Shown: in pieces, positions 5,595 through 10,404 of the stretch
Layout of the letters: each line of letters opens with the position of its first letter
Numbering within the stretch: position 1 is the stretch's first letter
Virus record (IMG/VR): IMGVR_UViG_3300031951_001527
Span: 1 to 20,133 of that record
Length of the DNA: 20,133 bases
Source of the DNA: a virus
Reading direction: 5' to 3' (one strand)
Notes under the pieces: model-generated
What the model was told of the DNA's origin: nothing
Seen by the model: the letters and a program-made list of their open reading frames with translations, nothing else
Databases searched by the model: none
Translations under genes and position numbers: made by a program

Positions 5595-6033
5595 CTACAA
5601 ATTCTTCTGGTGGCACAAATATACATAATTCTTTTGGCACTCGATAAAAATTATCCAAACCTGTACGATCGTTTGTTTTAATATATAATTTTTGTTTATA
5701 ATTTTCGTTAAATATAATATCCGAGTTGCAGAATATCGCAGCCTTTGTTTCCTTGCAGATGATGACATACCAGAAGTGTTGCTCTTTCCACTTTTCCTTT
5801 CGGCTCAGGAATGAAACGGATAGGAAAGGGAAGTCTTCTCTATTGGTCCACGGTCTTTGGGATTTCATTTCGACCTCCCAATAGTAGCTTTTGCCATTCT
5901 TATCGGAGACAAGATCTACTGCATATTTGTCACTATTCTCCGAAATATTGTGACCCTTTGAACGCAAAAAAGCCATAAGCAATTCCTTACCTATGGCATC
6001 GTTGTCATCGAATGATTTTTGATTGAATCTCAA
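5584..6033 (-). CDS. PD-(D/E)XK superfamily nuclease-like protein, TTG start
   Basis: 149 residues. A helix GKELLMAFLRSKGH (15-28) precedes YAVDLV (Asp40) and YYWEVEMK (Glu55-x-Lys57), the D-x(n)-(D/E)-x-K pattern of PD-(D/E)XK nucleases; Glu17 could be the accessory acidic residue. The downstream WTNREDFPFLSVS and WYVI strands complete an alpha/beta core. Many phages carry such proteins for DNA degradation, resolvase or repair work; which applies here is unknown. The start is a TTG at 6033 that overlaps the spanin stop (TTGA); the first in-frame ATG (residue 20) would delete the first helix, so TTG is preferred. Overlaps DUF3310 by 11 bases. Confidence 0.72.
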   Translation of the reverse strand: MRFNQKSFDDNDAIGKELLMAFLRSKGHNISENSDKYAVDLVSDKNGKSYYWEVEMKSQRPWTNREDFPFLSVSFLSRKEKWKEQHFWYVIICKETKAAIFCNSDIIFNENYKQKLYIKTNDRTGLDNFYRVPKELCIFVPPEEFVDER

Positions 6034-6446
6034 GATTTAAATCTATACGCAATAACCATTCCAATAAGGAAGGCCACGAATAGATACCACCAATTGATAA
6101 TTTTTTCGGTGTGAATTCTTCCCGGAACTTTCACCTCGTAGGGTATTGTATCTCTGAAGGTTATGGTGTCGGGTTTGATTGTTACCCCGAAGAAATCACC
6201 TCGCCTCTCGATGATTAGTTTTTCGGTCTCAATGATGGTATCATGTGAGATTATGAATGAGTCTTTGTACTCAGGAACCGGCACCTTGGTTTCTTTGATT
6301 ATGGTATCCTTTACGATTACTGTATCAGTTTCGATTAAATACGGATATTTGCGTATCAGTCGATCGTATCTTTTCTTCGGAGTCCCACAGGAAATTATCG
6401 CAATGCACATTACGGTAATTAGGGTTGCGATGAATCTATATTTCAT
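6030..6446 (-). CDS. Predicted unimolecular spanin (lipoprotein with C-terminal TM)
   Basis: 138 residues with the two-membrane layout of u-spanins such as phage T1 gp11. The N-terminus has a basic start, a hydrophobic stretch and a lipobox IISC ending at Cys20, then a basic CGTPKK segment, predicting an outer-membrane lipid anchor. Residues about 40-112 form an extended, strand-rich ectodomain with repeated D-T-I / D-T-V units (DTVIVKDTII, DTIIETEK, DTITFRDTIPYEVKV) and no coiled coil, as expected for the beta-type u-spanins. Residues about 117-134 (INWWYLFVAFLIGMVIAY) are a single TM helix followed by a basic tail, placing the C-terminus in the inner membrane. It would fuse inner and outer membranes in the last step of lysis of a Gram-negative host. 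First gene after the structured non-coding region. Confidence 0.75.
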   Translation of the reverse strand: MKYRFIATLITVMCIAIISCGTPKKRYDRLIRKYPYLIETDTVIVKDTIIKETKVPVPEYKDSFIISHDTIIETEKLIIERRGDFFGVTIKPDTITFRDTIPYEVKVPGRIHTEKIINWWYLFVAFLIGMVIAYRFKS

Positions 6447-6450
6447 AGTA

Positions 6451-6458
6451 CAAAGGTA
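6451..6458 (-). promoter_or_regulatory. Possible Bacteroidota -7 box before the spanin gene
   Basis: Minus-strand TACCTTTG matches TAnnTTTG and lies only 4 bases before the spanin ATG, the same geometry as the box before the 955-residue virion gene. No good TTTG/TTG lies 19-21 bases upstream, so this is a half-site. A hairpin (GTAAGG at 6456-6461 with CCTTAC at 6475-6480) overlaps it. If active, the mRNA would be nearly leaderless. Confidence 0.35.
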
Positions 6459-6490
6459 AGGTTTATACCTACATCCTTACTATAAACAAT

Positions 6491-6669
6491 AAAAGCCCAC
6501 CGATTAATTCTTTGTTTATTAGTTTATTACTAATACAAAAATAATAACCATTTCAAGTTTTCTCCTTTACGAGTTCGGAGACCAAGAAACATTTCGCCCA
6601 TTTTTCAGGGCCGTTAGCCGATTTGAGTTGCCTCCAGCTAACACGAGTCAATTGTTTTCGGTGGGCTTT
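6491..6669 (-). ncRNA. Candidate structured RNA, multi-helix, class unknown
   Basis: Read on the minus strand, this ~179-nt segment folds into at least five helices. P1 closes the whole element: AAAGCCCACCGA (6658-6669) pairs perfectly with TCGGTGGGCTTT (6492-6503). P2 is 6635-6642 with 6613-6620 (GUUAGCUG/CGGCUAAC) stacked on a 3-bp GAG/CUC stem with a GCAA (GNRA) tetraloop. P3 is GCCC/GGGC (6608-6611 with 6596-6599). P4 is UCUCC/GGAGA (6577-6581 with 6561-6565). P5 is an 11-bp AU-rich stem with a 2-nt bulge (6535-6539+6529-6534 with 6518-6523+6511-6515). P2 contains a U-G pair that would be A-C on the other strand, so the minus strand is the folding strand. After the P1 3' arm comes UUUUAUUGUUU, a possible 3' end. 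I do not recognise tmRNA, RNase P, SRP, 6S, riboswitch or hammerhead cores. It could be an independent RNA or a long leader of the spanin operon. A short reading frame overlaps it. Confidence 0.6.
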
Positions 6670-6704
6670 AAAAAGTAAGAGTTGCACTTTAGTACAACCC
6701 TTAC
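6670..6704 (-). terminator. Intrinsic terminator-like hairpin downstream of the reductase
   Basis: Minus-strand GUAAGGGUUGUAC-UAAA-GUGCAACUCUUAC (6704 to 6675) forms a 13-bp stem with two G-U pairs, followed by five U residues (6674-6670). On the plus strand both wobble pairs would be A-C mismatches, so the hairpin belongs to minus-strand transcripts, those coming from the reductase gene or from the possible promoter at 6751-6758. Its U-tract abuts the first helix of the structured RNA. Confidence 0.75.
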
Positions 6705-6750
6705 TACTAAACTAAACTAACTTCACTAAATCAAAGCATGAAAACCGAAA

Positions 6751-6793
6751 CAAATATAGTAAAAATTTGTTACAATAGTCGGAAATTTTCCGA
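6751..6793 (-). promoter_or_regulatory. Possible promoter with palindromic operator
   Basis: Minus-strand TATATTTG (6758-6751) matches the Bacteroidota -7 consensus. Where the -33 TTTG box is expected there is instead a perfect 7-1-7 inverted repeat, TCGGAAATTTTCCGA (6779-6793). The arrangement resembles a promoter that depends on, or is blocked by, a regulator bound at the palindrome. Transcription would run through the hairpin at 6670-6704 into the structured RNA, giving an attenuator-like order. The match is partial, so activity is inferred. Confidence 0.35.
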
Positions 6794-6831: not shown

Positions 6832-8685
6832 TTATGAAATTTCACAAGCACCACCAGCACAAGCGGCCTCTCCTAGTAGGCTTGTATTGTCGCTAATTTC
6901 TACAATATTTGCGACATTTATCTTGCTCACAACCTTAGATAATTCAAGGTAGGTGGCCTCATCAATATCCTCAAAAGGAGTCTGCTTATATGAACCCAAA
7001 TCCTGTGGCATAAACGACAAACCATTGTAGTGATTTTGGTTTTCCCACAGCCATCCTCCAACGATTCCCCATTCATTTGGTTTCATAGTTACGCTCGCTG
7101 ATACATTGTGCGTATTCTCGCCATAAACGTGGCCAGGTTTGATCCATTTCTCGTGGAGCAACTTCACCCTTTCCAAGAACTGAATTGCACTTTCTGAGTG
7201 CCTAGTAATCGCTCCTTTAGGTGCAGCGATTGGAACACACACATAAGCCTCAGTAGCAGTAGACAAACTATCTTCCAATAGTTCCGGGTGATTGATTGCC
7301 AAATAGGTGTAGAGTGCTTCGCTCTTGCCCACTTTCATTCTACGAATGTAGTACTCTGAGTGCCAAGCGTGAACACCAGATGAGCATCCCAATACGATTG
7401 ATGAAGTTCCTGATGGCTTGATTGTAGTAATACGAGCAGAAGGATTGATTCCAATTTCTTTAGCGACAACTTTGTTGGTTCTGTAAGCCATCTCAGCAGC
7501 TTCTGGCATATCTAAATCAAGAACTTTGCCCGATGCAATACCAGTCATTCCGATTCCCAATAAGGCTTCTCTTTCGGTTACTTCTTTCCATTGGGGTCTC
7601 AGATAATGAAAATCGGTGTAAGATGCCTGCAATGTTCCAATAAAGGCAGCAGCAGCCGTTCTCTCTTCGAAATCGTGCTGATCTTTCAAATCAGATGCAT
7701 TAATCTCCACTAGATTACAGAATTGGAATGAGTTCAAAGAAATCTCAGCACAAGGATTGGTGCCAAGTTCCAAGTCATTGGTAAAGAAGAAACCAGGCTC
7801 ACCTGAGTTGCTTATCTCAACCTTCTTCCACAAATCTAAGAATTCATTCTTTGTGATTTTACCACGGAGCAATTTAGCACTATTGTTAGCACGTCCACGT
7901 TGTGGGTTGGCTATGTACCACTCACCAAATTTGCAGGTCAACATCTCTTCATCATCGTGATCAAACAAGGCAATCATTGCTGACCTACGGATACCACCAG
8001 CCAAAACTGCGTTTGCAATGTGACATAGGATATCGTGGCACTCCAATGATGATAGTTGTTCTCCATCTTGTTTGCGTTCAAAAATGGCTTCAATCTGAGC
8101 CAAACAGATACGCAATGGTTCGGGACCAGGAGCAACACCACCTGATGTGATTAGTCTTTCGCCTTTTGCTCGTATCGATCTAAAATCGAAATTAGGCTTC
8201 CAGTTGCTGAGTCCAAAATAGGATTTGACCAAAACTTTAACTGCATCAGCCCAGCCTTCAATATTGTCAGGAATGAGATACCTTCTCTTTTTCGTAGCTC
8301 TAGAAATGGCAGGCAACTTAGCAATATGGTTATGGCTAACACTATAACCCACTCCAGTACCTGAAAGCAAAAGGAACATAGTCTCACTAAAAGCCCTATA
8401 ATCGTCAATATGAAGGTAACTACAGTTAAAAAGACGAGCGTTATTAACTTCAATAGGCTTACCAGCAAATTGAAGGGAACGCATCGAGGGGAGGATTTTT
8501 TTATCATAAACGAATGTATAGGCTTGTCTAATTTGTTTTTCTAAATGAGGAAATTTACGAATGTGCATCTGCATATTGCGATCTGCAATTTCGTTCCAAA
8601 TTTCTCTTCTTTGAACAGGCTCATCGTATTTGGCGTACTTAGACCAAACAACGATGTCCGATAGTATTTCGTGATTGATTTCCAT
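6832..8685 (-). CDS. nrdJ: Class II (adenosylcobalamin-dependent) ribonucleotide reductase, monomeric NrdJ type
   Basis: 617 residues from ATG 8685, which follows the MazG stop after one base; a GTG at 8715 would add ten residues but overlap that gene by 29 bases. It converts ribonucleotides to deoxyribonucleotides with a B12-generated thiyl radical. Key positions: the redox Cys in LFNCSYLH (about Cys88), SGTGVGYS loop (108-115), active-site NPCAEISL (Asn310, Cys312, Glu314), partner Cys in FCNLVE (Cys323), phosphate-binding PSGTSS and the C-terminal swinging-arm pair CAGGAC at the very end. No N-terminal ATP cone is seen and no small subunit gene is nearby, both consistent with the Lactobacillus RTPR-like monomeric class II enzymes common in phages. 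Oxygen independence and reliance on host or imported cobalamin follow from the class. It shares a transcription unit with MazG and is followed by a terminator. Confidence 0.93.
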   Translation of the reverse strand: MEINHEILSDIVVWSKYAKYDEPVQRREIWNEIADRNMQMHIRKFPHLEKQIRQAYTFVYDKKILPSMRSLQFAGKPIEVNNARLFNCSYLHIDDYRAFSETMFLLLSGTGVGYSVSHNHIAKLPAISRATKKRRYLIPDNIEGWADAVKVLVKSYFGLSNWKPNFDFRSIRAKGERLITSGGVAPGPEPLRICLAQIEAIFERKQDGEQLSSLECHDILCHIANAVLAGGIRRSAMIALFDHDDEEMLTCKFGEWYIANPQRGRANNSAKLLRGKITKNEFLDLWKKVEISNSGEPGFFFTNDLELGTNPCAEISLNSFQFCNLVEINASDLKDQHDFEERTAAAAFIGTLQASYTDFHYLRPQWKEVTEREALLGIGMTGIASGKVLDLDMPEAAEMAYRTNKVVAKEIGINPSARITTIKPSGTSSIVLGCSSGVHAWHSEYYIRRMKVGKSEALYTYLAINHPELLEDSLSTATEAYVCVPIAAPKGAITRHSESAIQFLERVKLLHEKWIKPGHVYGENTHNVSASVTMKPNEWGIVGGWLWENQNHYNGLSFMPQDLGSYKQTPFEDIDEATYLELSKVVSKINVANIVEISDNTSLLGEAACAGGACEIS

Positions 8686-8686
8686 A

Positions 8687-9085
8687 TCAAAATGCCTTTC
8701 CGTGTTTGTAACCACGCATAGAATTATACTTCATTTTCAATTCGATATGCTTCTCAAGGTCGATGTTCATACCTCCACACAAATCAAACAAACGAATGGC
8801 TACGTCTGCGATTTCATCTTCGAAAGTTGACTTGATTTTCTCTTCAAATAAAGACTTCCAAATACCTCTGTTCATTTGGAATTCCTCATCGGTGTATTGC
8901 AACTGAATGTCGTGCATCAAACCATCAGCAACTGCTTTTTCAGCATACTGATTTTTACGCAATGCTTCTTGTGCTTCTGCCAATTCAGATACTACAAGCA
9001 TTAACATTTCGGACACATTTCTCTCTGTGTCCCAAAAGCCTTTTTCTTTGGCTGTTCCGTGTGCTCTTGCTATTAAATTTTTCAT
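8687..9085 (-). CDS. MazG-like nucleotide pyrophosphohydrolase
   Basis: 132 residues, all helical. The MazG/all-alpha NTP pyrophosphatase metal site is visible as SELAEAQEAL (about 33-42, E-x-x-E type) and FEDEIADVAIRLFDL (about 88-102, E-x-x-D type), then a helix with IDLEKHIELKMKYN. The product likely hydrolyses a (d)NTP or a related nucleotide to the monophosphate and PPi, sanitising or biasing the nucleotide pool; the same family in phages has been proposed to act on ppGpp, which the sequence cannot settle. It begins a two-gene unit with the ribonucleotide reductase, behind a consensus promoter, so both act in nucleotide supply for phage DNA synthesis. Confidence 0.88.
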   Translation of the reverse strand: MKNLIARAHGTAKEKGFWDTERNVSEMLMLVVSELAEAQEALRKNQYAEKAVADGLMHDIQLQYTDEEFQMNRGIWKSLFEEKIKSTFEDEIADVAIRLFDLCGGMNIDLEKHIELKMKYNSMRGYKHGKAF

Positions 9086-9830: not shown

Positions 9831-9973
9831 CCTTGACCTCTGTATTTTTTAACGTAGTTCTTACTAGTCTTTAAAGAAGAACTCTTCTTTTTAGAAACAA
9901 CACCCGGTCTTTTGATGGATGCCTTTGGCTTCCACTTGGTAGCCTCTTTACTTGATTTTACTTTTGCTGCCAT
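9827..9973 (-). CDS. Small Lys/Ser-rich protein (48 aa)
   Basis: ATG 9973 to TGA 9827, too short for routine ORF calling. It lies 16 bases inside the preceding gene and its stop shares ATGA with the next start. Sequence is strongly basic with PKASIKRPG, a KKKSSSLKTSKNY run and ending in YVKKYRGQG. The KKYRGQG ending looks conserved in small phage proteins of this kind, but I cannot name the family. Probably binds nucleic acid or an acidic partner. Confidence 0.65.
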   Translation of the reverse strand: MAAKVKSSKEATKWKPKASIKRPGVVSKKKSSSLKTSKNYVKKYRGQG

Positions 9974-10404
9974 ATATACATTCTGAAATAATCAAACTCT
10001 TCTTTACCGCCTTCTTCAACGTAGTTCAAGTAAGCCTCGTATATTGGGCCTCCGAAACTAACTTCTTGATAAGAGGTGTCAACACCACTACCAATCATTT
10101 TAACTTGGTAGAATTCAACCTTTTGTTCAATCACCTCCATTGCTTTTACTACCTGCTCTGTTTTGGCTTCAGCAACTATAACAGCTTCTTTCAGTTCGGC
10201 TTTTTCCTCTTGCTTTTGTGCAACAAGTGCTGCACTTTTGGTTTGAGCAACTTTGGTTACCTCTGAGGCCAAACTCAAATTCCTTTGGATTTTCGCCATC
10301 ATCATTTCAATCTCATCTACAGGAGGAGTAGTAACTGCTCCTACAGGAAATGAAATTTCAATCAATAATAAAAATACGCAAAATGCAATAATGAGCGTTC
10401 TCAC
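9958..10404 (-). CDS. Exported coiled-coil protein
   Basis: 148 residues from a GTG at 10404 overlapping the upstream stop (GTGA). Residues 2-23 are a hydrophobic signal sequence or anchor (TLIIAFCVFLLLIEISF then PVGA, a plausible cleavage site at Ala23). Residues about 33-105 are Ala/Glu/Lys/Gln-rich with heptad spacing, a coiled coil lying in the periplasm. The C-terminal 40 residues are acidic/aromatic. Together with the neighbouring two-TM and TM-coiled-coil genes this could be part of an envelope-disruption set (Rz1/Rz-like in layout, although no lipobox Cys is present). Function not established. Confidence 0.6.
   Translation of the reverse strand: MRTLIIAFCVFLLLIEISFPVGAVTTPPVDEIEMMMAKIQRNLSLASEVTKVAQTKSAALVAQKQEEKAELKEAVIVAEAKTEQVVKAMEVIEQKVEFYQVKMIGSGVDTSYQEVSFGGPIYEAYLNYVEEGGKEEFDYFRMYIWQQK

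Follow-up and report, generated by a model that had tools for sequence, protein, structure and literature searches.

A retron-type non-coding RNA in phage records without its reverse transcriptase

The RNA locus and its fold

The virus record IMGVR_UViG_3300031951_001527 (IMG/VR), analysed over a stretch of 20,133 bases (the window), carries on its minus strand a structured RNA between the genes of a class II-type ribonucleotide reductase (RNR) and a small lipoprotein-like protein (Table 1). By homology this RNA is the msr-msd non-coding RNA (ncRNA) of a Bacteroidota retron, and it was found in phage records with no reverse transcriptase (RT). A preliminary description, made from the letters alone, had presented it as an unclassified multi-helix RNA and had proposed, among other roles, a leader of the lysis/terminase operon. 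No effector family was matched among the immediate neighbours of the RNA in the window (searched at the locus only).

Table 1. Features of the RNA locus, in window coordinates
Feature	Position	Strand	Evidence or remark
RT-less retron-type ncRNA (msr-msd homologue), core, P1 5' to P1 3' strand	6492..6669	-	Covariance model R2, 155 bits, E 1e-23; 31-sequence alignment
P1 5' strand, retron a1	6658..6669	-	Pairs with 6492-6503; two-sided changes in 10/12 P1 pairs, phage and cellular homologues
AUUGA	6648..6652	-	Invariant in 31/31 homologues
P2, msr hairpin with invariant CUGGA...UCARAUCGG and GCAA tetraloop	6612..6643	-	Lower helix 100% cells paired; two-sided changes in 4/8 pairs
P3, msr hairpin stacked directly on P2	6596..6611	-	Two-sided changes in 3/3 counted pairs
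P4, outer helix GUUUC/GAAAU and variable inner helix; start of putative msd	6550..6590	-	Fold, phage comparison
P5, AT-rich hairpin of putative msd	6518..6534	-	Fold, homologue comparison
Conserved box AAUAAACAAAGAAUUA before a2; putative start of reverse-transcription template	6505..6520	-	Near-invariant across homologues
P1 3' strand, retron a2, then short U-run	6492..6503	-	Fold and alignment
Upstream 14-bp hairpin and U-run (6705-6692 with 6687-6674)	6674..6705	-	Fold
TATATTTG, Bacteroidota -7-type promoter box upstream of the RNA	6751..6758	-	Box common upstream of phage RNAs
TACCTTTG, separate promoter-like box of the downstream lipoprotein operon	6451..6458	-	Between the RNA and the first gene
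Upstream neighbour, class II-type RNR	6832..8715	-	PHROG 367, E 9e-121; PF02867, PF21995
Downstream neighbour, small lipoprotein-like open reading frame (ORF); spanin-like by position only	6030..6446	-	No family match

The minimum free energy of the minus strand from 6480 to 6710 was -77.5 kcal/mol, compared with -45.8 +/- 4.2 for shuffled sequences (z -7.5, 0/200), and the plus strand folded more weakly (-59.7, z -5.2), in agreement with the folding strand given in the preliminary description. Refolding also placed its helices identically, namely a perfect 12-bp P1 (6669-6658 with 6503-6492), P2 (6643-6632 with 6627-6612) capped by the GNRA loop GCAA, and P3-P5. The upstream hairpin was likewise present, with 14 bp in the fold instead of the 13 claimed; its shape but not its sequence is kept in the window lineage, it is absent in two other RNA-bearing phages (L067 and L126), and it is either the RNR terminator or a hairpin at the 5' end of the transcript. 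What that description had missed was the conserved box at 6520-6505, the promoter-like boxes on both sides of the RNA, and the variability of P4 and P5, which form the variable part of the molecule. A small ORF (ATGGTTATTATT...) behind AAGGAG was rejected as a candidate gene: it is not conserved in homologues, and P5 takes its place.

Covariation in homologues supports a real structural RNA. An alignment of 31 RNAs (12 phage and 19 cellular) contained 29 invariant columns common to both groups. Of its 26 pairs, 18 carried two-sided changes (0/500 shuffles), and 96.1% of cells were paired. The compensatory changes in P1 and P2 that had been named in advance as support were found in phage and cellular homologues alike; within the phage lineage, eight pairs had changes on both sides, and P1, P2, P3 and P4 all showed compensatory changes. 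Elsewhere in the window, a phage DNA polymerase (PHROG 1252) is encoded at 443-2377, opposite in strand to the structural genes.

Cellular homologues next to retron reverse transcriptases

Neither the window RNA nor the cellular loci gave an Rfam match at the gathering score, and nothing convincing appeared for the window RNA up to E = 10; a search of the window for tRNA and tmRNA found none. ROOL, GOLLD and other phage RNAs in Rfam are phage-borne structured ncRNAs, a likeness by kind only, and they differ from the window RNA in having an Rfam entry. The label 'unclassified' was right as far as Rfam goes and wrong in kind, the RNA belonging to a retron ncRNA family that becomes visible through RT-adjacent cellular homologues.

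These homologues were sought by running the pattern ATTGAN{3,7}TGNNNNCTGGAN{7,18}TCARATCGG over 84,980 species, each represented by a single genome. Out of 42 genome hits, 23 were scored as RNA, 22 by a match to a first covariance model (R1) at E < 0.01 and one (L176) by confirmation with a second model (R2); the 22 genomes were Bacteroidota by title, except for two metagenome-assembled genomes titled Rhizobium and Phycisphaerales. No RT was found at the remaining, pattern-only hits, which were treated as chance matches. An RT lay directly 3' of the RNA by tblastn in 21/23 genomes, and the two exceptions were settled by inspection (a more distant RT in L176, and an RT start at the contig end in L174). 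All 24 cellular RNA copies in the 23 genomes (one genome has a second copy) precede a retron RT, the gap being mostly 15-34 nt. In a second survey of 395 genomes, an evenly drawn sample of the class Bacteroidia, 7 copies were found, with an RT after 7/7. The cellular RTs have the NAxxH and VTG motifs, match PADLOC retron RT classes XI, XII and I-C, find retron RTs (Ec67/Eco2 best) among PDB structures, and are often fused to the HisKin-conflict domain PF22561.

Some of these loci vary in detail. In the second copy (L193, G026:C89:1403-1590) the P2 apical hairpin is mostly gone, yet an RT still follows after 16 nt, and a separate HisKin-conflict ORF adjoins. When the RT is aligned by tblastn to seven of the cellular loci (L162, L147, L157, L163, L178, L180 and L182), the match is interrupted around residues 154-160, where the subject is longer by a few hundred nucleotides; this is a variable insertion that lies ahead of YADD in the RT domain.

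The retron identity of the window RNA was recognised because its cellular homologues adjoin reverse transcriptases. It is homologous in sequence and structure to these RT-adjacent ncRNAs (R1 and R2), and inverted a1/a2 ends close it, P1 being the a1/a2 helix, in which 10/12 pairs covary. With the ncRNAs of Bacteroidota RT and RT-HisKin-conflict retrons it shares the a1/a2 helix, AUUGA, the P2 sequence CUGGA..UCARAUCGG, P3, GAAUGU and the AUAAACAAAGAAU box. P1, P3 and the 3' box align across phage and cellular RNAs although they lie outside the search pattern. The guanosine G6649 in AUUGA, invariant in 31/31 sequences, is a candidate branch or priming guanosine. Compared with the cellular ncRNAs, the phage RNAs have a shorter msd and P2 apex (most cellular copies exceed the window RNA in the length of the putative msd), and the a1/a2 sequence has been swapped through compensatory changes. 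The msd of L067 and L126 holds a microsatellite-like (ATT)n run whose length differs between these otherwise similar RNAs.

Distribution and acquisition among phages

Phage relatives were collected from IMG/VR as terminase and RNR homologues, and RNAs were sought with blastn, R1, a pattern scan and then R2. The RNA is carried by 21 phage records. Matches by blastn and R1 were L002, L003 (cut), L004, L005, L006, L012, L022, L029, L052 (cut), L066/L067 and L126, while L011, L016, L017 and L018 have RNAs with quite different P1 sequences; the pattern scan added L133, L137 and L140, and R2 one more copy, cut off by the boundary of L027. The isolated phages of INPHARED contained no homologue of the RNA or the terminase, giving short weak matches only.

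No RT was detected with PF00078 in 20 RNA-bearing virus records, or with an RT profile in 21 records of the phage family, including two RNA-bearing records of 67.2 and 67.6 kb; control genomes and RT-bearing viral records scored in these searches. The RNA-bearing phage records searched hold no cognate RT that would make up a complete retron, and the phages differ from Bacteroidota retrons in this and in the lack of an effector match among the immediate neighbours of the window RNA. That the RNA is the decaying remnant of a phage-carried retron after loss of its RT is very improbable. The shorter msd and P2 apex would fit such decay, as would the RT of the same clade present in two viral records, but the compensatory changes within the phage lineage, the promoter-like boxes in 12/13 phages, the independent RT-less cases and the lack of any RT fragment argue against it.

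The RNA is accessory in these phages. Close relatives keep the order RNR, lipoprotein and TerL without it (spacer 25-280 nt), the phages L126 and L133/L019 have a short RNR spacer and carry the RNA at another locus, and in L137 and L140 it adjoins an ORF with a peptidoglycan-binding domain. The leader role is for this reason rejected, and is hardly credible: the RNA does lie on the same strand just upstream of the operon in the window, but a promoter-like box of the operon's own (6458-6451) separates the two, and the operon also occurs without the RNA, which other phages carry elsewhere.

The RNR-lipoprotein spacer is an accessory cargo site of the phage family, holding mobile-type ORFs in other members. 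The long spacers of L031, L065, L068, L076 and L020 yielded no RNA with R2 and contain mostly protein ORFs. In L067 an ORF in this spacer (L067:10402-10950) encodes a GIY-YIG-like/helix-turn-helix (HTH) protein, by weak homing-endonuclease and HTH matches, and an ORF in that of L031 (L031:7298-7870) looks HNH-like by eye. A small protein (MKAxLEFNLPEDQxEF...) is encoded at most about 1.3 kb from the RNA in four phages (L067 near 9950-10190, L126:7203-7520, L137:3420-3644 and L140:7068-7292); it also occurs in L065 and L068, there without the RNA, and two of these proteins had no PHROG match.

Between L022 and the window, the RNA is better conserved than the neighbouring genes, with 92.8% nucleotide identity as against 65% (lipoprotein) and 77% (RNR) for the proteins. 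In a tree of conserved columns, the window lineage stood apart from the cellular RNAs (support 100) and the L011 and L137 groups fell among them; for this reason the RNA was probably acquired at least twice, the tree being built from a short alignment. A T[AT]NNTTTG box was present within 120 nt upstream in 12/13 phage RNAs, the background being about 0.2 per 120 nt. A promoter-type box lies 4-15 nt before P1 in most cellular copies and in the L011 and L137 groups, which suggests that promoter and RNA were taken up together.

A retron-derived RNA domesticated for an unrelated phage job, such as regulation, packaging or stability, could account for the structure maintained in the phage lineage and for the constant placement of the RNA between RNR and lipoprotein genes in the window lineage. 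This explanation is unlikely: close relatives lack the RNA, its locus differs between phages, it was apparently acquired at least twice, and it has kept its retron-specific core without drift.

A possible role against host retrons

Beyond the homology and structure of the phage RNAs, the absence of an RT from the searched records, the accessory distribution and the promoter-like boxes, all of which are observed, the presence of the RNA without its enzyme suggests that the phage uses an RNA copy to keep a host defence off. The reading that we consider the likeliest, with moderate confidence, is that the orphan retron RNA serves as an antitoxin mimic or decoy that holds off the RT-effector of a host retron. 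A Bacteroidota phage family would take the complete compact ncRNA (a1/a2, two msr hairpins and a short msd), minus the RT, from host retrons. The RNA would be transcribed during infection, most likely from its own promoter, and its conserved msr/a1-a2 core would bind the RT, usually an RT-effector fusion, of the resident host retron. The resulting complex would keep the effector inhibited, or the RT would be soaked up, and the host retron would then be unable to abort infection.

The RT, together with its RNA/DNA, neutralises retron effectors, which are set free when phage factors disturb the RT-DNA (PMC12548924); the Eco2 complex is self-inhibitory, with phage DenB implicated as the trigger (PMC12405507). 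Since RT and RNA/DNA neutralise the effectors, a phage that supplied the inhibitory partner or occupied the RT would be protected. What the phages hold is a copy of a host defence RNA without its proteins. A likeness is found in the pseudo-ToxI of phage PhiTE, an RNA mimic that protects the phage against ToxIN and that likewise reproduces, in a phage, the RNA component of an abortive-infection system of the host (PMC3475682), although ToxI, the RNA that ToxN binds, is a short repeat RNA, whereas the present RNA is a retron RNA of roughly 180 nt. RNA-based anti-CRISPRs (Camara-Wilpert et al. 2023, as cited in PMC12948488) are, to judge from that citation, similarly solitary phage RNAs that look like the RNA component of a defence complex in the host; the target here would be a putative retron RT-effector. 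The part of the literature covered contained no published example of an RT-less phage retron RNA.

Several points weigh against a mimic or decoy. Expression, RT binding and inhibition of the defence are steps that we infer; co-occurrence with a target retron is presumed; most phage records are fragments, so that the missing RT is convincing only in the ~67-kb records; and an RNA domesticated for some unrelated phage function would show the same features. Alternatively, the RNA could be a trans-acting template, copied by a host retron RT into phage-specified multicopy single-stranded DNA that serves the phage in some way other than inhibition of defence, for example in excluding competing phages or as a DNA reagent. 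The RNA retains all the conserved elements to be expected of a primed template, namely AUUGA with its invariant G, the 3' box and the a1/a2 helix, but such a template would depend on a patchy host system (7/395 Bacteroidia genomes), and this use seems rather doubtful.

The mimic or decoy reading has a wider form, which we judge to be evenly balanced between true and false, in which repeatedly captured orphan msr-msd RNAs holding retron RT-effector complexes off would amount to a widespread RNA-only counter-defence. We know of no earlier RNA-based anti-retron, and this one would be the first if the reading is true. The work delineates a non-Rfam ncRNA, with a covariance-based structure, for a group of Bacteroidota retrons with HisKin-conflict effectors, and scanning phages for defence ncRNAs without their enzyme offers a route to more RNA-only anti-defence elements. 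Retrons are usually viewed as an RT plus an RNA; RT-less phage RNAs suggest that counter-defence takes a new form here, and they make directly testable whether a retron RNA alone can disarm retrons.
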